Virus record (IMG/VR): IMGVR_UViG_3300048838_000203
Location: 1 to 34,684 of that record
Length of the DNA stretch: 34,684 nt
Direction: 5' to 3' (one strand)
Source: a virus
The notes below the pieces were generated by a model, which searched no databases, had not been told where the DNA came from, and saw nothing but the letters and a program-made list of their open reading frames with translations. Both the position numbers and the translations under genes were made by a program. This document shows positions 1 to 34,684 of this stretch, one piece after another; the first letter of the stretch is position 1, and each line of letters begins with the position of its first letter.

Positions 1-127
1 TTATATCGACGGTCTCCACACGTATGAGGGAGTGATTGATGATATCAAGGCATGGTTGCGGAAGGTGAAGCCTGATGGATGGGTCGGCGGCCATGACTAC
101 GGACATAAGCTATGCCCGGGCGTAAAG
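1..127. repeat. Left copy of 127-bp terminal direct repeat
   Basis: These 127 bases are identical to the last 127 bases of the window. Both copies lie inside one methyltransferase gene that reads in frame through the join. This is what a circular or circularly permuted genome looks like when an assembler leaves a k-mer-sized overlap. It is not a biological long terminal repeat, because it encodes an internal gene fragment and has no flanking structure. The unique circle length is 34,557 bp. Confidence 0.95.
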
Positions 128-1994: not shown

Positions 1995-2323
1995 GACACC
2001 TTTATAACACAACAGTAGAGATACAGCGAAAGGAAAATGTAGGAACAGAATTTCATCCCGTGTGGGACTGGGATATACACCTCACTCCACAGGTGAGAAT
2101 ATCACAGCTTTCTTCGGCAAGAATCGTAAGGGACGAAGGCGGTGTGATTAAGGCAGATCACGAAATGTATCTTGATCCGTGTGACATTAAAATAACTGAT
2201 AGAATTGTCACTACTACTGCGATATATGAGATTTACAGCATCGATGATATTGACGGAATGGGGCATCACTACGAAGTCAAGATGAAAAAACTTGATAACA
2301 GTATGAGCGAGGCCGGAAGTTGA
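1991..2323 (+). CDS. Head-tail adaptor / head closure protein
   Basis: The 110-residue protein starts RHLYNTTVEIQRKE and continues in short beta strands, the pattern of small head closure proteins (SPP1 gp16 / phage head-tail joining type) that cap the connector after packaging. Position supports this: it heads the block head closure, gp10-like, tail completion, tail tube. In ordinary phages it would follow the connector gene directly; here the connector at 31884-32225 is separated from it by the sugar cassette. ATG at 1991 overlaps the stop of the HAD gene. I recognise fold and position rather than a diagnostic motif. Confidence 0.7.
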   Translation: MRHLYNTTVEIQRKENVGTEFHPVWDWDIHLTPQVRISQLSSARIVRDEGGVIKADHEMYLDPCDIKITDRIVTTTAIYEIYSIDDIDGMGHHYEVKMKKLDNSMSEAGS

Positions 2324-2706
2324 TAGATTGGAACTGTGATAAAATAAAGGTACTCATGGAGAAAAAGCAGAAGACGTTTCTCCACAAAGTAGGACAGGCT
2401 ACCGTGAACCAGATGGCAGAGTTTGCTCATGTGAAGACTGGAACATTGAAGAACAGCATGAACTACAGACTGAGTACAGGATCGGCTTCTAACTTCGGGA
2501 CAGAGACAGGGCCAGGGGGGAAGGGCGCCACACCTCCTGAGAGTGCAAAGATGGATAACGCATCAGATAAAGACTATGTGCGGTGCGGTTCTAATCTGGT
2601 ATATGCAGGCCCCCAGGAGAAGCACAATGCCTGGGCCTCAAAGACAAAAGATGAACTCGTAGCCAGTAAAACTATAGTAAGGCTTGCGGAGAACACGTTC
2701 AAATGA
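2320..2706 (+). CDS. HK97 gp10-like neck / tail-joining protein
   Basis: The 128-residue product contains HVKTGTLKNSMNYRL in the first third and YVRCGSNLVYAGPQEKHN towards the end. The VKTGxLRxS and V(G)xxxxYAxxQExG pattern is characteristic of HK97 gp10-like proteins that join head and tail. TTG at 2320 overlaps the previous stop as TTGA and is preceded by a purine-rich stretch; ATG at 2356 is a possible shorter start but would remove an N-terminal helix. It overlaps the next gene by 4 bases, consistent with coupled translation in the head-tail operon. Confidence 0.75.
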   Translation: MIDWNCDKIKVLMEKKQKTFLHKVGQATVNQMAEFAHVKTGTLKNSMNYRLSTGSASNFGTETGPGGKGATPPESAKMDNASDKDYVRCGSNLVYAGPQEKHNAWASKTKDELVASKTIVRLAENTFK

Positions 2707-4235: not shown

Positions 4236-6612
4236 TAGAATCGGTGGCGTATATGTAGAGATTGGCGCAATGATGGACGGTTTCAATCGTGCAATCAATG
4301 AAGCACGTGTGAAATCCGGAAATCTTGATCGTCAGCTCAATGATAACGTAACCAGGACATCTTCTGCATTCTCCGGCATGGGGAAAACCATAGTCGGAGT
4401 GTCCGCACTGATAGGTGCCGCTCTCGGTGTTATGTATGTGAAAATGGCACGACAGGCCATGGACGCAGTAGAGACACAACAGAAGTTCGGCGTTGTGTTC
4501 AGGGATACCCTGGAAGCGGCAAATGCTGCGGTAACCAATCTTGCGGACAACTACGGCCTTGCGACCACAGAAGCGCGTGATATGCTTTCCGCAACAGGAG
4601 ACCTCCTCACGGGTTTTGGCATGACAGGTGAGCAGGCCCTGCAGCTATCTGAGAGAACACAGCAGTTAGCTGTAGACCTTGCATCATTCACTAACTACTC
4701 AGGCGGGGCGAGAGGTGCATCAGAAGCACTCACAAAGGCTATGCTCGGTGAGCGTGAAATGCTGAAATCTCTCGGTATCGTTATTCGAGAAAGCGATATA
4801 AAACAGAGACTCGCGTCAATGGGTATGGCAAATGCTACTGGTGTAGCGAGGATGCAGGCACAGGCACAGGCAACCCTTGCACTGGCGTATGAGCAGTCAA
4901 CAAACGCAATCGGGGACTTCGCACGATCTGCAAACTCTCCGGCGAACGTAATACGCAGGGTACAATCTTCATTACAGAACATATCAGAAGAAATAGGCGA
5001 AACAATGTTGCCGGGTCTTCAGGAGCTTGGTCTGGCTTTTATCGAAGCATCACGTGACGGTGGTGTAATGATACAGGCTGCAAAAGCAATCGGAGACCTA
5101 CTATCAAAAGCCGGTATGTCGATAGCTTATGTTATCCGGATGCTTGACACGATAAACAAAAAGAATGCTCTGCAGGAAAACATGGACAGGGCTGCAACTG
5201 CTACAGGGAATACTCGTGTTCAGATGAACCAACTCGAAGCATCGATGCAGGGCGTGAGAAATACAGGGTTATCGACTGCTACAACCTACAACGCTATGAT
5301 AGCAGACCTTGATAGACTGGCTGCAGGTAGTGGAAGCACGGCACAGGCTGCCAATACGTTATCAAGCACATTGAGAGCACAAAGGGCTGAAATAGAGCGT
5401 TCCGGAGCATCAGCGCAAAGAGCACAGAATGCCGCATCAGGCCAGATAGGACAATACGAAAGGGCATATACTGAGCTTACACGGCTTGGTCAAAGGATAC
5501 GTGGAGTTACGACTAACACAGAAGAACTCGCTGCTCAGCGAGCGAGAGACCGTCAGAGGACACAGGAACAGACTACCGCAACCGGAGACCAAAGCAAGGC
5601 TCTTGCGAAGCTGAAGAAAGACCTTGAATCAGTAATGAACAGCCTTGCTACTTTCGGTATGGGGGAGGGCGAGCAGGCTCAGGCAGACGCGACGAGGAAA
5701 CAGCAGATACTTGATAGAGGACTCGCTGAAAACCTAATTACAAGAGAGCAGTACAATCAAGCAGTTATTCAGCTCGAACGACAGACGGCACAGCAGGTTG
5801 AAGAAATACAGAAAAAATCATTCATGCAGACAACGCAGAATGTACTTGGCACGATTGGTACTGTAGGGAGTTTGGTCTCACAGTTAGGACAGCTTTACTC
5901 GTTATCCGCCAGCAATCAAACGGCAGAGCTTGAAAATCAGCAGACAGAACAAATGGCATTGATAGCAGCAAACTACGATCAGGAGCTTGCTATTATAAAT
6001 AGCTCAATAACCGATAAGACACAGCGAGACGCAGCTCTCAAAGCTCTGGATGAGAAAAGAGCCAGAGAAGAAAAGAAACTGCAGGAGCAGACCGAGAAAG
6101 AGAAGCGGAAAATTGCCAGAGAAGCGGCGAAGAAACAAAAGCAGATTGCAGTATTTGAGACATTAATCAATATCCCTTCAGCTGCTTTCGCGGCTTTCAA
6201 ATCAGCTCAATGGTTACCGTTCCCGGCATCTGCGGTGATTGGTGGTGCTCTGGCAGCAGCTGCTACTGCTCTCGGTTTTGCAAAACTCGCATTGATACAG
6301 CAGACACCACTACCGGCGGCGGCAAAAGGTATTTACGCAGAGTCTCCATATATCGGTGGTGAGGCAGGCCCTGAGCTTGCTTTCCCGCTATCATCAGAGA
6401 GGGGGAGGGCGGCTCTTTCGCTTTTCTCTGAGCAGTTTATCAATAAGCTCGGTGAAGGATCGGCGACAAAGGCACCGGAGGCAACTATCGGAAACAGTGC
6501 CGGTAACATGTTCAGGGTAGTTGTGAATCTTGGCAGTAAAGTTCTTTATGATGACATTACAGAGGCAACGGCGAACGGTGAAATTATGGTGCATGCAAGG
6601 GCTATTGTATAA
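4228..6612 (+). CDS. Tail tape measure protein
   Basis: At 794 residues this is the largest protein here. The N-terminal third is rich in alanine and glutamine helices (residues about 1-250), a hydrophobic segment GKTIVGVSALIGAALGVMYV lies near residue 55, a long coiled-coil region follows, then a strongly charged helix around residues 595-640 and a second hydrophobic segment near 650-690 (PASAVIGGALAAAATALGFA). This is the usual build of tape measures, which set tail length and are released on infection. At roughly 0.15 nm per residue it predicts a tail near 120 nm. It follows the chaperone pair and overlaps the next gene by one base (TAATG). Confidence 0.93.
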   Translation: MADRIGGVYVEIGAMMDGFNRAINEARVKSGNLDRQLNDNVTRTSSAFSGMGKTIVGVSALIGAALGVMYVKMARQAMDAVETQQKFGVVFRDTLEAANAAVTNLADNYGLATTEARDMLSATGDLLTGFGMTGEQALQLSERTQQLAVDLASFTNYSGGARGASEALTKAMLGEREMLKSLGIVIRESDIKQRLASMGMANATGVARMQAQAQATLALAYEQSTNAIGDFARSANSPANVIRRVQSSLQNISEEIGETMLPGLQELGLAFIEASRDGGVMIQAAKAIGDLLSKAGMSIAYVIRMLDTINKKNALQENMDRAATATGNTRVQMNQLEASMQGVRNTGLSTATTYNAMIADLDRLAAGSGSTAQAANTLSSTLRAQRAEIERSGASAQRAQNAASGQIGQYERAYTELTRLGQRIRGVTTNTEELAAQRARDRQRTQEQTTATGDQSKALAKLKKDLESVMNSLATFGMGEGEQAQADATRKQQILDRGLAENLITREQYNQAVIQLERQTAQQVEEIQKKSFMQTTQNVLGTIGTVGSLVSQLGQLYSLSASNQTAELENQQTEQMALIAANYDQELAIINSSITDKTQRDAALKALDEKRAREEKKLQEQTEKEKRKIAREAAKKQKQIAVFETLINIPSAAFAAFKSAQWLPFPASAVIGGALAAAATALGFAKLALIQQTPLPAAAKGIYAESPYIGGEAGPELAFPLSSERGRAALSLFSEQFINKLGEGSATKAPEATIGNSAGNMFRVVVNLGSKVLYDDITEATANGEIMVHARAIV

Positions 6613-7346
6613 TGCAGATACTCTACGATAATAAAGCGCTCTCAGCGGCGGTATCACGTAGTACAGAGAACTCCTACTACCCGGTGACGAATTTACAGGA
6701 TCCACGGCTTTCCCGAAAATTCAGGACGATTGACGCAGCGGGTGAGTATGTGAAGTTCTCTACACGAATAACAGCGTCACGGTTTGCAATTCTCGGTCAC
6801 AATATTTCCGAAGGTTCTACTATCATATTGCAGGGAAACGACACCGATATATGGACAGCTCCCTCATTCGAGGAAACACTGACATGGAAATCAGGAATAA
6901 TACTCCATTCTTTCACCGAGGTAACGTATAACTACTGGCGGCTGTATATGGACGGAGGGAGCAATTCATATTTTGATATCGGTCTTTTGTACCTCGGTAC
7001 GTATTTACAGTTGCCAAACATGAAAGCAGATCAGGAGATCGCAGACGAAACCACAGCAGAGGTTACTATCTCTTCAGGCGGACAGGCTTATGGAGACGAG
7101 GGGTATGATTACAGGGCACCCACTATCAACTTCCCTGGTGTCACGAACGCGCAGAGGGACGGGATCAGGGCGATGTGGAGCACGGTGAAGAACGTAAGGC
7201 CGGTGATATCGGTGGTATGGGCGAACAGAACAGACATGGAGACACCGATCTACGGTATACTGGACCAGAAAGAAATCAAGTTCAAGAAGTCCGACTCTCC
7301 ACTTTACCCGTGGTCAACAACTTTGCAACTCAGAGAGGTATTTTAA
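6612..7346 (+). CDS. Tail tip protein, distal-tail or carbohydrate-binding type
   Basis: The 244-residue protein follows the tape measure, the place of distal tail or minor tail proteins. It is mostly beta: SYYPVTNLQDPRLSRKFRT, then AGEYVKFSTRITASRFAILG and FTEVTYNYWRLYMDGGSN. This alternation resembles jelly-roll domains (galactose-binding or discoidin-like) found in tail tip proteins that contact host glycans. I do not recognise an exact family. ATG at 6612 shares an A with the previous TAA, and the gene ends directly before the next start at 7347. Confidence 0.6.
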   Translation: MQILYDNKALSAAVSRSTENSYYPVTNLQDPRLSRKFRTIDAAGEYVKFSTRITASRFAILGHNISEGSTIILQGNDTDIWTAPSFEETLTWKSGIILHSFTEVTYNYWRLYMDGGSNSYFDIGLLYLGTYLQLPNMKADQEIADETTAEVTISSGGQAYGDEGYDYRAPTINFPGVTNAQRDGIRAMWSTVKNVRPVISVVWANRTDMETPIYGILDQKEIKFKKSDSPLYPWSTTLQLREVF

Positions 7347-8060
7347 ATGGCAGGCTCGCAAATTAACTCATACGGTATCGGTGACGTAAACCTTACATCA
7401 CTCATGGCTTCGGTTGATGCGGAAAGGATCGGGTTCTGTGCGGTATCGCTCACGAATTACGATAATACAAGTGAGCCGGAAATAGCCGAAGGATCGAAGA
7501 TTGAAGTCAATGGGGCATTGTTTAAGTTCGATGCAGATGAAGCAATAGGCGGCTCTCCCTCTGATGGTACGGTATATATAAAGCTCATTCCAGTGAGCAC
7601 ATCGATAACAGCAGAATTTACGAATACAGCCCCCACGTGGGACACCGAGAAACAGGGCTGGTACTCCCCAACACCTGGGGAAGAAAATTACAGATATATT
7701 CCTTTCGAGATGTATAAAGCAGGAACACTTTATTACGACAAGAGAATAATCAACGAGCACACATCATCAATGCTCTCGATGTCGCAGCAGGGACTCGGTA
7801 TATCAGACATGTCAGCAGTAGCAACAATAGCGAAAGTTCAGGGAACTATAGGTGGCGATAATAGCTTCTATACGGATTACCCTGCTGGTTTTACTGCTGG
7901 GAATACAATAATATTGGATGTTGCAATCTCGCAATACGGAGGATGGACGAGCTCCATGACATTGAGTGCCGGGACGAGATCGGCAGATATCTTCGTAACT
8001 TCCACTGTGTCTATTGTCGGAAGCACTGTGAGGGTGATCCTTATGAGGATAGGCGCATAG
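7347..8060 (+). CDS. Tail tip / minor structural protein of unknown fold
   Basis: The 237-residue product begins AGSQINSYGIGDVNLTSLM, then is beta-rich with many glycine, serine and threonine residues and no signal peptide. By position it should be a tail tip component acting with the hub encoded at 8543. It ends in a hydrophobic beta stretch (TVSIVGSTVRVILMRIGA). After its stop at 8060 the late operon is interrupted by the convergent reverse-strand cargo gene. I cannot assign a specific function. Confidence 0.6.
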   Translation: MAGSQINSYGIGDVNLTSLMASVDAERIGFCAVSLTNYDNTSEPEIAEGSKIEVNGALFKFDADEAIGGSPSDGTVYIKLIPVSTSITAEFTNTAPTWDTEKQGWYSPTPGEENYRYIPFEMYKAGTLYYDKRIINEHTSSMLSMSQQGLGISDMSAVATIAKVQGTIGGDNSFYTDYPAGFTAGNTIILDVAISQYGGWTSSMTLSAGTRSADIFVTSTVSIVGSTVRVILMRIGA

Positions 8061-8073
8061 GCAATGGAGATTA

Positions 8074-8487
8074 TTATCTCAGCTCAAACTCATACCCGAT
8101 GCTTACTGTTGATATATCTCCGTTCCAGTAGTCTGCGCTATTTGCACATGTTTGGTCTGCACCAGAAACTACACGGTGGGAGCAATGGTGTTTCGCATGA
8201 ATAAAAACTCCGTTATATCGGAAAAATTGACCAATGGAATAAACGTCATCAAAAGGTTGGCCGTTAATTGCTCCTCTTTGGTAATACGCCCATGTTCTCG
8301 TTCCACAATAAGTTTCGGAAATTATATTCAGGAAGCGTATCCGATACCCTATATTAAAGTCAGTAAAATAGATATTATCGGAAAATGCAAATCCAGCCTC
8401 TACGCGCACAAAAGTGCCGGAATAAGAAACACTACCGGGAAGAAAAAAGGAAAGTACCAAAATAAAATATATTATACACGCCTTCAT
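8074..8487 (-). CDS. Reverse-strand cargo gene (moron): secreted, outer-membrane-like protein
   Basis: This is the only convincing reverse-strand gene. The 137-residue product starts with a signal peptide (KACIIYFILVLSFFLPGSVS, small residues before a likely cut near residue 24). The mature part has alternating strands such as GTFVRVEAGFAFSD and FTDFNIGYRIRF, and ends GDISTVSIGYEFELR, like the last strand of an outer membrane barrel. Four cysteines and a histidine-rich FIHAKHHCSHR lie in the middle. A consensus promoter lies just upstream (8497-8525), so it can be expressed apart from the late operon. Lysogenic conversion or superinfection exclusion are plausible roles; a PagL-like lipid A enzyme is only a thought. 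Two stop codons in a row end it. Confidence 0.72.
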   Translation of the reverse strand: MKACIIYFILVLSFFLPGSVSYSGTFVRVEAGFAFSDNIYFTDFNIGYRIRFLNIISETYCGTRTWAYYQRGAINGQPFDDVYSIGQFFRYNGVFIHAKHHCSHRVVSGADQTCANSADYWNGDISTVSIGYEFELR

Positions 8488-8496
8488 TTTGTTGAA

Positions 8497-8525
8497 AATA
8501 TACTACATGGGGCTATTATCGTCAA
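8497..8525 (-). promoter_or_regulatory. Sigma-70-type promoter for the reverse-strand gene
   Basis: On the reverse strand TTGACG (8525-8520), a spacer of exactly 17 bases and TATATT (8502-8497) match the bacterial consensus at 5 of 6 and 5 of 6 positions. The predicted start of transcription is near 8490, only 2 to 5 bases before the ATG at 8487, and no ribosome binding site fits in between. The transcript may therefore be nearly leaderless. Confidence 0.85.
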
Positions 8526-8542
8526 CCTGATTGGTAAAATAA

Positions 8543-10393
8543 ATGAGTTTTGACACATATAAAAATTTACCAGTATCGAAAAAAATAGTACTTCTTGAAA
8601 TAGACTTACCGATCAAGGAGTCGCAGACATGTGATATATTGATAAACTACGAAGCCGGCATCTGGTATGCAAAACTTACCCCTGGTGTGGTATACGTGTA
8701 TGGGAGTGACGGTCAAATCGGTTATTATACGAATCAGAGCGAGGACGACAATAAAGATGTATCGTCAATAAAGGTTGATGGTATTGATTACGTAAAAATA
8801 ACATCAATCGCTGAACTCCGGCAGCAGCAGGAATCTTTTTACTACGATAAAGACACCACGGAATTATATTTTCACTTCGCAGATTGGAGACAGCCTCTGG
8901 ACTCCAATATTATCATTGGTATAGCTCTCGGTTTTTGCGACACCCTGGACAGCACAAACGGGGCGTATTTCGGCGGCAAGTATTACGAGCCACGGATACT
9001 CAGCGTTCCCGCTATCACGAAGAGTAAAGATCCTTTATTCTTTGGGATACTGCGCTTCCAGGGTGGAGCAGTAAAACTCCTGAATAATGATGGATACTTC
9101 GATAACTTCAGGAGCCTGAACGCATACCGGCAGACGGCGAGAATAAAGCTTGGTTTCGATGGGCTTGATTATGAGGATTACAGGACAGTCTTCACCGGAT
9201 ACGTCCAGAAATATACTCAGGATTTCACTACCTTCTCAATTACGCTTCAGGACTTGCGGAAGGGACTGAGCAGGGAGATACCGAACACCCTATTAACGCT
9301 TGACGATTACCCGTATTTAAGCGAGAACAATGTCAATGCAGTGAAGCCCCTTGCGTATGGGGTTATAAGAGGAGCACCCTGTATTTGTCTGAACGAGGAG
9401 GAGTCGGCGGCATCCTATGAATTTCTCCTGATGGACACCACGTATTACAGCATGTCCTCGGTGTCTGCGGTATATGTCGATGGCGGTGAAATAAGTTCTG
9501 CATACTACACGGTGAATCTTGTAGCTGGTACTATCTCAATAAATGCAGCACAGTGCTCTGACAATTTAGGAGACATAACGTGTGACTTCACGGGAATCAA
9601 TATCCAGAATGGCGTTTCAGTAATTGAGAGTCTGCTCCTGAAGTACAATGGGAAAGCCTTTATCTCCACGAATTACAATATCCGTGAGTGGGGACTTGCA
9701 AAGTCGGTATGCAGAAATGTAGCCGTGTATGAAGACGAGAGCAGGGAGCTGTCAAAGATAATTGAGGAAATATGTGATAGCTGTGATCTTGGGTTTATCG
9801 TACAGGACGATGGAAAGTACACGGCAAGAATTTACAATGAGAATAGAACTGCTGCAACTACTATATACACTGATGAGTATGTAGGTGATCCTGTTCTAAC
9901 CCTTGATGAAGATAAATTCCTTTCAAGCGTCCAGATTAAATACAATAAGAACCAGAACAGTGACACGTTCCTGAAGCATGTAAACACTGATTACGAGGAT
10001 GAGGTATTTGACCGGTATAAATCATATCAGCAAAAGACGTTTGAAACTATTCTCCCAACTCTATCTGATGCGATGGAAAAGTCAGAGTCTGTAATGGCAC
10101 TCTCTAAAAATATTACTGATGTGATTAAAAGAACAGTGAAAACGCAGCACGTTAATCTTGAAATCATGGACTTCGTTATAGCGGCTCCGAACACCAGGGA
10201 GGGAGCTGTAGAGAAGTGGGGCTATCATGAGATAGTAGGAATACAGAAAAACCTGTCAAAAGCAGAAGTGGAATTGTCAATGCGTTTCGTTAAAGTATAT
10301 ACACCGCCTGAATCACTTGATTATGAGCAGGGGTATGCGTGGTTTAACAGATTGTACGGGGATAAACTTTTCAGCACAACGAGGTATTACTGA
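8543..10393 (+). CDS. Central tail tip / hub protein
   Basis: The 616-residue protein lies downstream of the tape measure and tail tip genes. It has beta-rich modules in its first half (KIVLLEIDLPIKESQ and FYYDKDTTELYFHFADWR) and a C-terminal segment with LSSVQIKYNKNQNSD and NLEIMDFVIAAPNTREGA, the kind of architecture seen in siphophage hub or baseplate proteins that anchor fibres and close the tube. There is no recognisable peptidase motif. ATG at 8543 has only a weak upstream purine tract, and the -35 of the divergent promoter lies 18 bases upstream, so the cargo insertion may have disturbed the original leader. It overlaps the next start by one base. Confidence 0.65.
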   Translation: MSFDTYKNLPVSKKIVLLEIDLPIKESQTCDILINYEAGIWYAKLTPGVVYVYGSDGQIGYYTNQSEDDNKDVSSIKVDGIDYVKITSIAELRQQQESFYYDKDTTELYFHFADWRQPLDSNIIIGIALGFCDTLDSTNGAYFGGKYYEPRILSVPAITKSKDPLFFGILRFQGGAVKLLNNDGYFDNFRSLNAYRQTARIKLGFDGLDYEDYRTVFTGYVQKYTQDFTTFSITLQDLRKGLSREIPNTLLTLDDYPYLSENNVNAVKPLAYGVIRGAPCICLNEEESAASYEFLLMDTTYYSMSSVSAVYVDGGEISSAYYTVNLVAGTISINAAQCSDNLGDITCDFTGINIQNGVSVIESLLLKYNGKAFISTNYNIREWGLAKSVCRNVAVYEDESRELSKIIEEICDSCDLGFIVQDDGKYTARIYNENRTAATTIYTDEYVGDPVLTLDEDKFLSSVQIKYNKNQNSDTFLKHVNTDYEDEVFDRYKSYQQKTFETILPTLSDAMEKSESVMALSKNITDVIKRTVKTQHVNLEIMDFVIAAPNTREGAVEKWGYHEIVGIQKNLSKAEVELSMRFVKVYTPPESLDYEQGYAWFNRLYGDKLFSTTRYY

Positions 10394-11496
10394 TGGCACA
10401 CTGGACAACATTTGACATTGATGGAGAAGTAACGGGAAGCGGGCATGTGTCGAAGTCTCGCCTGTTTAACTATAACTCTCAGTTTCCATCACTGATATAT
10501 GATGAGTTGTATGAAGATGTTGGAACTGGCGGGTTTATTCTCGGAGACACGAAACGGGCTTTTCTTGCTACTGATTTTTACATAGAGACTGATGATTCCG
10601 GCGGTACGATACTGGAAGAGGGTACAGATTATCAGCTTATAGATGAAGACTTTAACTACACTGAAGAAGTCGGTGCAACTGTATATACCAGAGTACAAAT
10701 ACTGAATGCAGCATACCAGACAGGACCTCTGTATATATCGTATAAATGCTGTGGAAGTTACACCGATGTTGATGTTATTAATAATATAAACGATAACTTC
10801 AGTGAATACTTGGAGGAGAACTACAGCTGCCTTTTCTACCCATCATACCAAAACCTGACCGCCAAACCCAACACCAGCAACCCAACGTATCAAGTTGATA
10901 TTGCCTGGGATGAACTCAGAATTGAAAACCGGCGCACGACTTCACAAAGTTTTACCCTTGACATTACACAATCCGGCGCACTGGGTCTTGATACCGGCGC
11001 GGAAGCAGTGTCAACGTGGTATTATATCTGGGCAATCTGCAACGACGCGGGAACAACGGTGTCAGTCATTCTGTCAGCCAGCGCAACCAGTCCGACACTT
11101 CCCAGCGGGTACACGAAAAAACGGTTGATTAGTGCGGTGTTCAATTTGGCAACGGGGCATTTTAGAGGGTTTCAGCAAAAAGATGCAAACTACACAATCC
11201 AATCTGTAACTGTTATATCAGCGGGAACTGCTGGGTCATGCACAGCTGTATCATTAGCAGCAATAATACCAATCAATTCACGAGTGGTACACGGCGCACT
11301 CCATAACGATTCCGTAGGGTGGATTACGTACGTATATAATACAAGTAGTTCATACGGGCAAAAGATGTGTGGATCGGGAGGAGGCTCCACCTATGCTAAC
11401 ATATGTATTCCAATTATTGATGCACAAATAATATATTATAATATTTCCGGTGGACATGCATACATATATATTTCCGGTTGTGAATTAAACATCTAA
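10393..11496 (+). CDS. Tail fibre / receptor-binding protein candidate
   Basis: The 367-residue product is last of the large tail genes. The N-terminal part (to about residue 130) carries FILGDTKRAFLATDFYIE and YISYKCCGSYTDVDVI, which may attach to the hub. The middle has SQSFTLDITQSGALG, and the C-terminal third is low-charge and rich in G, S, T, Y and I (YGQKMCGSGGGSTYANICIP, ending HAYIYISGCELNI), as expected for a fibre tip that meets a receptor. A change in codon and base composition around 10850-11170, more GC-rich than the flanks, hints at domain exchange. Assignment rests on position and composition. Confidence 0.6.
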   Translation: MAHWTTFDIDGEVTGSGHVSKSRLFNYNSQFPSLIYDELYEDVGTGGFILGDTKRAFLATDFYIETDDSGGTILEEGTDYQLIDEDFNYTEEVGATVYTRVQILNAAYQTGPLYISYKCCGSYTDVDVINNINDNFSEYLEENYSCLFYPSYQNLTAKPNTSNPTYQVDIAWDELRIENRRTTSQSFTLDITQSGALGLDTGAEAVSTWYYIWAICNDAGTTVSVILSASATSPTLPSGYTKKRLISAVFNLATGHFRGFQQKDANYTIQSVTVISAGTAGSCTAVSLAAIIPINSRVVHGALHNDSVGWITYVYNTSSSYGQKMCGSGGGSTYANICIPIIDAQIIYYNISGGHAYIYISGCELNI

Positions 11497-13422: not shown

Positions 13423-13451
13423 TTGACATCTTGATTGCTTTGATATATATT
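13423..13451 (+). promoter_or_regulatory. Early promoter P1
   Basis: TTGACA (13423-13428, perfect), a 17-base spacer and TATATT (13446-13451) form a strong sigma-70-type promoter. It follows the late terminator and faces the first early gene at 13493, which has a GAGGTGAAGGG ribosome binding site. The -10 lies inside a perfect palindrome, so the promoter is probably repressible. Confidence 0.92.
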
Positions 13452-15930: not shown

Positions 15931-16475
15931 TGCATATCGAAATCAAAAACAGATATACTTGCACTATCATTTTTGCCGGCGAATATGAATCCGTTAAAGA
16001 TGCCGTCACAGGCGCTTATCTCGCAGGCGCTAATCTCACAGACGCTGATCTCACAGACGCTGATCTCATAGGCGCTGATCTCAGATACGCTGATCTCAGA
16101 TACGCTGATCTCAGAGACGCTAATCTCAGATACGCTAATCTCAGAGGCGCTAATCTCAGAGACGCTGATCTCGCAGACGCTGATCTCAGAGGCGCTAATC
16201 TCATAGGCGCTGATCTCGCAGACGCTGATCTCAGAGGCGCTATCGGAGCACCATATACAATATTTATATGTGGGTCACGACATGATGTGTGGACTGATGG
16301 TGATATTATCAAGATAGGATGTGAGGTATATAATGTCGATGAGTGGGTAAATCAATATTGCGAGATCGGAAGAGCTAACGGGTATTCTCCCGATGAGATA
16401 TCAGAGTACAAAGCCTATATCGATCTGTGTTCGCAATTTGTGCCGAAAAAAGCAACCGATAGTGAGGTAGCGTGA
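15930..16475 (+). CDS. Pentapeptide-repeat protein
   Basis: The 181-residue protein has a short N-terminal domain ([20 protein letters not shown]), then fifteen repeats of A(D/N)LxxA-type pentapeptides (residues about 29-103) and a C-terminal domain ([20 protein letters not shown], then [12 protein letters not shown]). Such repeats fold into a right-handed square beta-helix; some members mimic DNA and protect gyrase, others have unknown roles. The C-terminal domain is of a type seen in other phage pentapeptide proteins. The start ATG overlaps the preceding stop. Confidence 0.88.
16014..16238 (+). repeat. Fifteen tandem 15-bp repeats within the pentapeptide gene
   Basis: The unit is GCT(G/A)ATCTC followed by six variable bases such as AGAGAC, AGATAC, ATAGGC or GCAGAC. 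The first nine bases are nearly invariant although synonymous codons would be allowed, so the repeats spread by recent slippage or recombination. Repeat number is likely to vary between relatives. Confidence 0.95.
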
Positions 16476-16756
16476 TGATATACACATGCAAGAATGAACA
16501 TGTATTTAATCGGAAATTTGACGCATGCCCGATATGCGGAGAGAGAGCAGTGCTCACCGTTGCGGAAATGATGGAGCAGAAGATTGAACAGGCCATAGCA
16601 GATGAAGAGGCGAAACGCCCCTATGAAGAGCTTCCCTGTGATGATCTTCCAGATCCTATAGAGCTTGAAGATGGTACTGTGGTGTACCCACCGAAGAACA
16701 GGTGGGATTGGGAGCGGTTCGTACTCAGAAAACGCCGTGAACTGGAGGCCGTGTAA
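16475..16756 (+). CDS. Small zinc-ribbon-like protein
   Basis: The 93-residue protein starts IYTCKNEHVFNRKFDACPIC, giving C, H and a CxxC pair, as in a rubredoxin-like zinc ribbon. The middle is an acidic helix and loop (EELPCDDLPDPIELEDG) and the end is basic (WERFVLRKRRELEAV). ATG at 16475 overlaps the previous stop as TGATG. The function is unknown. Confidence 0.65.
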   Translation: MIYTCKNEHVFNRKFDACPICGERAVLTVAEMMEQKIEQAIADEEAKRPYEELPCDDLPDPIELEDGTVVYPPKNRWDWERFVLRKRRELEAV

Positions 16757-16938
16757 TGGCGAAGGTATATTTGCGGAATGTTCCACATCATAGTTTTGTG
16801 AATTGTTGTCATGATAAAGATATGAATCCATGCTACTTCTACGGAAGCGCGCCACTAAAGTGTCCCAGGGATAAAACTGGATCGTTGTTATGTGGAGAAA
16901 AAGATACAGTTTATAAATTTGTGAAACGTGAGGAATAA
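16756..16938 (+). CDS. Small cysteine-rich protein
   Basis: The 60-residue product (AKVYLRNVPHHSFVNCCHDK, then CPRDKTGSLLCGEKD) has five cysteines and a cluster of histidines, suggesting metal binding. It starts at the end of the previous gene (GTAATGG) and ends just before SSB. No family is recognised. Confidence 0.6.
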   Translation: MAKVYLRNVPHHSFVNCCHDKDMNPCYFYGSAPLKCPRDKTGSLLCGEKDTVYKFVKREE

Positions 16939-16939
16939 T

Positions 16940-17338
16940 ATGGCTAACGATATCAATAGGGTAATACTCATAGGGAGACTCACTAAAGACCCCGAACTGA
17001 AGTACACACAAAACGGCTCATCAGTGGTAAACTTCACCATCGCAAACGGACGGACTTACACTGTTTCCGGCGACAAGAAAGAGTACACTTCGTTTTTCAA
17101 CTGTATCGCATGGAGTAAACTCGGTGAAGCTATTGCACAGTATTGCAAGAAAGGTCAGCGTGTAGGGCTGGAAGGCAGATTGCAGCAGCGCACCTGGGAC
17201 GACAAGGACGGCAACAAGCGTTCAGCGGTAGAAGTGGTTGTGGACACGTTCCAATTTCTTGACGCGAAGAAGAGCGGGGAAGGGAAAGAGCCGGAAGTTC
17301 CGGATAATCCTTTCTCGAGTGACAATATACCATTTTAA
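16940..17338 (+). CDS. ssb: Single-stranded DNA-binding protein
   Basis: The 132-residue protein is a clear bacterial-type SSB: INRVILIGRLTKDPELKYTQ, then SSVVNFTIANGR, TSFFNCIAWSKLGEAIAQY, KKGQRVGLEGRLQQRTW and EVVVDTFQFLDAK form the OB fold. The C-terminal tail ends SSDNIPF, close to the DDDIPF tip through which SSB recruits partner proteins. It coats single strands during replication and annealing by the ERF protein. GAGGA lies 5 bases before ATG. Confidence 0.96.
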   Translation: MANDINRVILIGRLTKDPELKYTQNGSSVVNFTIANGRTYTVSGDKKEYTSFFNCIAWSKLGEAIAQYCKKGQRVGLEGRLQQRTWDDKDGNKRSAVEVVVDTFQFLDAKKSGEGKEPEVPDNPFSSDNIPF

Positions 17339-24210: not shown

Positions 24211-24495
24211 GTGAATACAATCTACAACCACAATGTCGAAAAAATTATTTCCGATCTCTACACTATATACAATCACTTCGGTAAAGAGAACCAGATCAAT
24301 AAGCTCGCTGAAGAATGTGTGGAGTATCTGGAAAGCTATATCACGAACAGAAAAGAGAGTTATGATCCTGAAGAGGTTGCAGATGTGCTTGTGGTGGCGT
24401 TACAGTTGGCTTTTAATGATCCTGAGGTAGCGCAGGCGGTGAAAGACAAGATTGCGCGGACCATTACAAGGATAGGGGAGGGGTACTATGAATAA
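24211..24495 (+). CDS. MazG-like NTP pyrophosphohydrolase
   Basis: The 94-residue helical protein has the metal-binding motif EExxE...ExxD of MazG-type enzymes: KLAEECVEYLES followed 20 residues later by DPEEVADVLVVALQLAF. These enzymes hydrolyse nucleoside triphosphates to monophosphates, either cleaning odd nucleotides or lowering alarmone signals during infection. GTG at 24211 has GAGGA 6 bases upstream and is preferred over GTG at 24199. It overlaps the next gene by 8 bases. Confidence 0.75.
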   Translation: MNTIYNHNVEKIISDLYTIYNHFGKENQINKLAEECVEYLESYITNRKESYDPEEVADVLVVALQLAFNDPEVAQAVKDKIARTITRIGEGYYE

Positions 24496-24640
24496 GCAGG
24501 TACCGGTGGAGTGTTATTCCCGTGTAGTGGGGTTCTATCGTCCTTTGAGTCAGTGGAATCCCGGGAAGAAAGAGGAGTACAGGGAAAGAGTTGAGTATGA
24601 TGTAATAGAATCAATGAGACATAATATTGTTGACGCTTAA
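24488..24640 (+). CDS. Stand-alone glycyl-radical C-terminal domain of anaerobic ribonucleotide reductase (NrdD-like)
   Basis: The 50-residue product reads VECYSRVVGFYRPLSQWNPG then KKEEYRERVEY. This matches the extreme C-terminus of class III ribonucleotide reductases (R-V-x-G-Y/F followed by W-N-x-G-K-x-x-E), which bears the glycyl radical; here Gly15 would be the radical site. No catalytic barrel is present. A replacement radical domain, like YfiD for pyruvate formate-lyase, would be one idea. The -35 of promoter P5 overlaps its last codons. Confidence 0.75.
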   Translation: MNKQVPVECYSRVVGFYRPLSQWNPGKKEEYRERVEYDVIESMRHNIVDA

Positions 24641-34212: not shown

Positions 34213-34684
34213 GATTTCAATCAGGAATGCTCCGACAGCGATACCGGGGCTTCAGGACATGATAATGTACATCCAGAAGAAAGGCTGCGTACACTTCTCA
34301 AAGTTCGTAATGGCAGAGATAGGGTCCTATGTCGGAGACTCCACACAAGTGTTCGCCGTTGCGTGTAAAGAGATACACTGCGTTGATCCATGGCAGAACG
34401 GGTATGACGAGAACGACTTTTTAAGTTATAAGTACGACATGAAGATCATAGAAGCGCAATTCGATGAGGTTTGTGAGCGCTTTCACAACGTTATTAAGCA
34501 CAAGATGACTTCCGTGGAAGGTGCTGAAGAGTTCGAGGATGAAAGCCTTGATTTTATTTATATCGACGGTCTCCACACGTATGAGGGAGTGATTGATGAT
34601 ATCAAGGCATGGTTGCGGAAGGTGAAGCCTGATGGATGGGTCGGCGGCCATGACTACGGACATAAGCTATGCCCGGGCGTAAAG
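34202..34684 (+). CDS. SAM-dependent methyltransferase, N-terminal part (continues at the left end)
   Basis: The frame opens at ATG 34202 and is uninterrupted to the window end (161 codons), then continues in frame to 214 across the circular join. Motif I is AEIGSYVGDSTQVFA near residue 43, followed by the acidic strand end HCVDPWQNG; DFIYIDGLHTYEGVI lies at the join. This is a class I Rossmann methyltransferase, Methyltransf_24-like, of about 189 residues. In a sugar cassette it may O-methylate a glycan. GTGGGA precedes ATG and the start overlaps the GT8 stop. Confidence 0.85.
   Translation, partial: MKDKISIRNAPTAIPGLQDMIMYIQKKGCVHFSKFVMAEIGSYVGDSTQVFAVACKEIHCVDPWQNGYDENDFLSYKYDMKIIEAQFDEVCERFHNVIKHKMTSVEGAEEFEDESLDFIYIDGLHTYEGVIDDIKAWLRKVKPDGWVGGHDYGHKLCPGVK
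34558..34684. repeat. Right copy of 127-bp terminal direct repeat
   Basis: Exact copy of bases 1-127. See the left copy: it marks closure of a circular assembly, and only one copy belongs to the genome. Confidence 0.95.

Follow-up and report, generated by a model that had tools for sequence, protein, structure and literature searches.

A 482-bp unit on the reverse strand of a phage genome is, on balance and with modest confidence, interpreted as a self-contained foreign moron with its own sigma70-type promoter, an mRNA leader of 0–5 nt and an outer-membrane barrel as the product, which would change the surface of the infected cell. The unit consists of one gene and its predicted promoter and sits as a backward insert between two tail genes. 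It would provide a compact and testable case of an envelope-cargo gene which carries its own expression signal, needs no ribosome binding site and runs against the late operon.

The analysed window is an IMG/VR virus record of 34,684 nt (IMGVR_UViG_3300048838_000203). The first and last 127 bases of the window (1-127 and 34558-34684) are identical, and on this basis the record is taken to be a complete phage genome, circularly permuted, with 34,557 bp of unique sequence. The genes assigned in the phage included those of the tape measure, tail, capsid (PF20036), portal, MuF, terminase and replication. All the other assigned genes are located on the plus strand, and the ORF at 8487-8074 is the only minus-strand ORF with homolog support.

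Antisense gene and its insertion site

The gene (8074-8487, minus strand, ATG at 8487) encodes a predicted secreted outer-membrane beta-barrel protein of 137 aa. An in-frame TAG is positioned 15 nt upstream of the ATG, therefore the N-terminus is fixed and no longer form is available. A full-length homolog with 44% identity was detected in G001 (virus contig IMGVR_UViG_3300005917_000032). The identity between the two genes by codon position was 50/72/37%, which argues for protein-level selection in the minus frame. A distant homolog, about 20% identical, was found in G002 (IMGVR_UViG_3300028840_002452) with an E value of 4e-5 within that record; among 1,778 ORFs including reversed decoys, the G002 member was the top non-self match (E 1.5e-4). 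The core common to the three homologs comprises the signal peptide, F-T, T, Y, F, H-x-C-x-H, W and, near the C-terminus, S-x-G. Computationally, the ORF was confirmed as a real gene. The plus-strand frame at 8152-8553 was rejected as a real gene, since it is the minus frame that shows protein-type conservation with G001; the plus frame was also ruled out by the stops which interrupt the antisense of the G001 homolog.

No family was found for the ORF in the Pfam, PHROGs or PDB sequence searches, and tblastn of its protein against phages and plasmids gave no credible match. Additional scans of viral contigs with single and aligned queries returned the same loci only, and a genome scan with the barrel family resulted in no match. 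The codon usage of the ORF was not phage-like and failed to separate the gene from its shadow frames. The GC3 was 0.34 compared with 0.40–0.60 in the structural genes tested. The codon usage and GC3 are consistent with a foreign gene.

The inserted unit occupies the space between the stop codon of a tail gene and the start codon of the following one (8061-8542). It is flanked by an upstream tail-region gene (7347-8060, plus strand; homolog of L003:4269-4994 in G002) and a downstream tail gene (8543-10393, plus strand; homolog of L003:4995-6785 in G002). The tail block is kept in G002, where the homologs of 6612-7346, 7347-8060 and 8543-10393 are found in the same order with 27–37% identity. 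In this relative, the one from which the empty-site evidence is derived, the homologs of the two flanking genes abut between L003 4994 and 4995 (TAAATG) and the site is empty. The barrel gene of G002 is located at 36.1 kb instead, in an operon-like row and co-oriented with its neighbours. The G001 homolog stands alone and is opposed to the flanking genes, a tail-fibre-like gene and an outer-membrane phospholipase gene. Such presence/absence variation among the relatives is as expected of a moron.

The first-pass annotation had proposed a reverse-strand moron which interrupts the tail genes and is transcribed against the tail operon, and had named conserved absence in relatives as an argument against it. 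The empty site in G002, the orientation of the G001 homolog and the minus-strand gene between plus-strand tail genes agree with this proposal, and the presence of the gene varies among the relatives instead of being uniformly lost. The unit is classed here as a moron, i.e. a putatively foreign, reverse-strand piece inserted at a site which is empty in a relative. The GC content of the insert was 38% versus 45% in the window, a moderate deviation that places it near the 12th percentile of equally long windows. No flanking repeats pointing to an insertion mechanism were detected at the insert.

Two observations were made on the surroundings of the homologs. The phospholipase gene of G001 (16373-17137; L002 4102-4866) encodes an outer-membrane phospholipase A (PF02253, E 6e-38) with an intact H-x-S...N motif. 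In G002, a solute-binding protein (PF01547, E 6.5e-23) and two ABC permeases (PF00528) are encoded beside the barrel gene (31667-36458; L013 12667-17458), and the same row holds a signal-peptide protein without a Pfam match; the ends of G002 are identical over 144 bp. The row is an apparent phage-encoded sugar importer. The sugar permease had only 24–34% matches, in Bacillota, which are uninformative on the host.

Predicted barrel fold and the H-x-C-x-H motif

The signal peptide, read by eye, covers residues 1-23 (MKACIIYFILVLSFFLPGSVSYS; 8419-8487, minus strand) with the predicted cleavage before Gly24. It has Lys2 in the n-region, a hydrophobic core and the cleavage pattern SYS/G, which corresponds to AYS/G in the G001 homolog. 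The beta-signal-like C-terminal stretch SIGYEFEL, read from the sequence, is formed by residues 129-136 (8080-8103, minus strand); its counterparts are SAGFEFNM in G001 and SAGVQW in G002.

The mature protein was modelled with AlphaFold2 using the three homologs. The model, of medium confidence, had a pLDDT of 70, a pTM of 0.56 and six strands. Natural outer-membrane barrels have at least eight strands, more than in the model, so the modelled topology is tentative. The structure comparison was performed with VIA-align 2 on Foldseek's top 1000 chains, and outer-membrane barrels made up most of the 50 best PDB rows. The Lom family is absent from the pdb_via listing, which counts neither for nor against it. 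The Z scores were 9.7 for NspA and a Legionella porin, 8.7–9.0 for OmpA, 8.9 for OprF, 8.4 for Ail, 8.0 for PagL and 7.7 for OmpX. A first model, based on two sequences with the signal peptide kept (pLDDT 64), matched a mixture of barrels, fluorescent proteins among them, and was replaced. The product is predicted to belong to the outer-membrane beta-barrel class of fold, and we infer an outer-membrane location in vivo. The signal peptide and the barrel, both suggested in the first-pass annotation, were thereby recovered: the former by its sequence features common with G001, the latter by the fold matches together with the agreeing beta-signal.

Lambda Lom and the Ail/OmpX proteins resemble the product as small outer-membrane barrels with a signal peptide, lom being likewise an accessory gene among tail genes, and Ail and OmpX are included in the fold matches. 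However, there is no sequence similarity, and none of the three barrel members had a Pfam match with Ail_Lom (PF06316). Lambda lom runs with the late genes, whereas the gene studied here is antisense and has a near-leaderless promoter. By analogy, the best reading of the unit is a Lom-like outer-membrane surface moron.

The conserved H100-x-C102-x-H104 motif (8176-8190, minus strand) lies where the penultimate strand ends and is invariant in 3/3 homologs. In all three members, H100, C102 and H104 are on the same strand side as V/F, I/L and A/I, so the motif apparently faces the lipid. In PagL and OMPLA, the H-x-S centres are located outside the barrel near the outer leaflet, and the catalytic triad of PagL is His-Ser-Glu. 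One reading, considered quite improbable, is accordingly that the barrel acts enzymatically on lipids of the outer leaflet, like PagL/OMPLA but with a cysteine centre, H100-x-C102(-x-H104) lying at the extracellular end of the strand. The invariance of H, C and H despite the low identity of the G002 member, their alternation onto the hydrophobic strand side and the presence of PagL among the fold matches speak for an enzyme, as does the true OMPLA, with its motif intact, next to the G001 copy. The lipid A 3-O-deacylase PagL and OMPLA (PldA) are similarly outer-membrane barrels with an H-x-(nucleophile) near the outer leaflet. In contrast to these enzymes, the barrel family has H-x-C-x-H instead of H-x-S-N, i.e. 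Cys for Ser and an extra His two residues on, and thus lacks the PagL triad; no Glu/Asn partner, including an equivalent of PagL Glu140, was recognised. At a cutoff of E 10, the PagL profile PF09411 matched nothing in G000-G003, and PagL ranks below non-enzymatic barrels in the fold matches. The motif could also be metal-binding or structural, and its conservation is that of three sequences.

Still less probable is the broader proposal of an undescribed phage outer-membrane barrel family in which a lipid-facing His-x-Cys-x-His modifies outer-leaflet lipids and whose gene travels as an antisense moron equipped for leaderless expression. The invariant H-x-C-x-H nevertheless points to a specific activity and is the point most worth testing.

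Predicted promoter and near-leaderless start

The -35 hexamer TTGACG (8520-8525, minus strand) and the -10 hexamer TATATT (8497-8502, minus strand) are separated by a 17-nt spacer, and the latter ends 9 nt before the ATG. The nine bases between the -10 hexamer and the ATG are TTCAACAAA. Assuming the standard 6-nt discriminator, transcription would start from the A at 8490 (minus strand), giving a 3-nt leader, AAA. No Shine-Dalgarno (SD) sequence precedes the ATG at 8487: its best anti-SD duplex, +0.6 kcal/mol, was the weakest of the 46 window starts, the majority of which pair well with anti-SD. The first-pass description of TTGACG-17-TATATT next to the ATG, with no room for a ribosome binding site, holds on both counts. 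The own promoter expected of a moron is this TTGACG-17-TATATT, judged by sequence only.

Two other promoters of the phage, TTGACA-17-TATATT ending at 13451 and 14021, precede small regulator-like genes; the distances from the -10 to the ATG are 41–43 nt, good SDs included. Due to this difference, the near-leaderless layout stands out in its own genome. The position of the -10 hexamer, the missing SD and the contrast with these two promoters lead to a predicted mRNA leader of 0–5 nt, allowing for drift, most likely 5'-AAA-AUG. The G001 homolog has an ordinary leader with AGGAG shortly before the ATG; leaderlessness is therefore a local trait of this insert and dispensable for the barrel cargo.

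The placement of the promoter is not readily obtained by chance. A site of at least 10/12 with the -10 ending 5–14 nt before the start codon was found in 0.1–0.4% of the Markov-simulated upstream regions, and a site of at least 10/12 anywhere within 120 nt in 0.9–4%. The start at 8543 is the only one of 45 on the plus strand to have a site scoring at least 10/12 within 120 nt, and that site overlaps the moron promoter. The 2.5-kb scan, on the other hand, resulted in 8 promoter-like sites compared with 5.6 expected from shuffles, i.e. no excess. It is conceivable, though unlikely, that the same barrel moron is expressed with a long leader from a promoter further upstream, with an SD-less start in an A/T-rich region and TTGACG/TATATT being fortuitous. 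Other minus-strand promoter-like sites are indeed present at 8751-8724 and 9239-9210, and such sites are no commoner in the region than in shuffles. Both upstream sites, however, fall inside the tail gene and outside the inserted unit, whereas the near site has TTGAC and TATATT in common with the two other phage promoters and its placement is the improbable one described above.

The near-leaderless start preferred here is comparable with known cases. An AUG at the mRNA 5' end or at most 3 nt from it has been classed as potentially leaderless, and most of the tested 5'-terminal upstream ORFs were translated, some on par with leaderless lambda cI (PMC4965119). Expression from a -10 element directly in front of the ORF is common in Deinococcus-Thermus (PMC12340547). 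As with lambda cI transcribed from PRM and other leaderless mRNAs, the promoter abuts the start codon and no SD is present. In contrast to cI, the barrel gene is not a repressor and its predicted leader is 3 nt, not a strictly leaderless AUG.

The divergent promoter-like site TTGAAA-16-TATTAT (10/12; 8492-8519, plus strand) faces the downstream tail gene. Speculatively, it might partly restore the expression of this gene, whose own SD is weak. The divergent site and the moron promoter overlap and could exclude each other.

Expected surface effect, expression timing and other cargo

According to the preferred reading as a Lom-like surface moron, the promoter would yield an mRNA with the short leader, whose translation would begin without a leader or independently of an SD. 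The signal peptide would export the product, and a small beta-barrel would assemble in the host outer membrane, reaching it independently of the late programme. There, the barrel would alter the surface of the infected cell in the manner of lambda Lom and other outer-membrane morons. The likeliest benefit would be blocked or altered phage adsorption, e.g. against competing phages, or another envelope modification; a part in phage resistance or in changing the envelope would be plausible. Three phages carry the barrel family, two of them (G001 and G002) beside other envelope genes.

Leaderless expression had earlier been linked with translation outside the late phase. The near-leaderless promoter was found, but the link itself is only partly supported: neither a tyrosine or serine recombinase nor an HTH_3-type repressor was detected in the complete phage genome, although G001 carries an integrase, and the G001 homolog is SD-led. 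The regulators found in the phage were of the Arc/FitA-like ribbon-helix-helix type only. With this gene content, lysogeny of this phage, and with it expression of the moron in a lysogen, is hypothetical. In a phi24B lysogen, lom was expressed similarly with or without induction, uncoupled from phage regulation (PMC3342100).

After the ORF, only chance-level terminator-like sites were found, none of them convincing, and the nearest downstream ones on the minus strand (7672-7657 and 7598-7583) are inside the tail gene. With no convincing terminator behind the ORF, the transcript could continue as antisense RNA into the tail genes. Comparable loci are known from Salmonella prophages, in which an accessory gene or an RNA runs antisense to structural or lytic genes. 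STMMW_20121 of ST64B is a moron of this kind and, as predicted here, is driven by its own promoter; STnc6030 lies antisense to genes for BTP1 structural proteins and confers superinfection exclusion (PMC7067206). These loci differ in their products, and the present phage has no recognised integration module. The least probable of the readings considered is that antisense RNA is the main product, transcription from 8490 into the tail genes hampering their expression (superinfection exclusion or timing) and the protein being secondary, since the missing terminator and the STnc6030 precedent are countered by the clear protein-level conservation of the reading frame and by the G001 and G002 homologs, which occur in other contexts without the same antisense target.

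Other genes of the phage were also noted. The tail-tip-region protein encoded at 10393-11496 had a weak match with the second domain of Mtd; no reverse transcriptase was noticed among the ORFs. A stand-alone protein of 50 aa (24488-24640, plus strand; PF13597, E 2e-8) with the motif R-V-V-G-F/Y resembles the C-terminal glycyl-radical end of anaerobic ribonucleotide reductase and has a counterpart in G001 (2296-2448, minus strand); it is possibly a spare part for damaged NrdD. A surface-sugar cassette spans the contig junction (32222-34212 and 195-1994) and is placed among the head-tail connector genes. It contains NeuB (PF03102, E 1e-56), GT8, a HAD-like phosphatase and a methyltransferase-like frame, with weak matches to a cytidylyltransferase and a GT29-like protein. 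This nonulosonic-acid/glycosyltransferase cassette is another surface-modifying load of the same phage.
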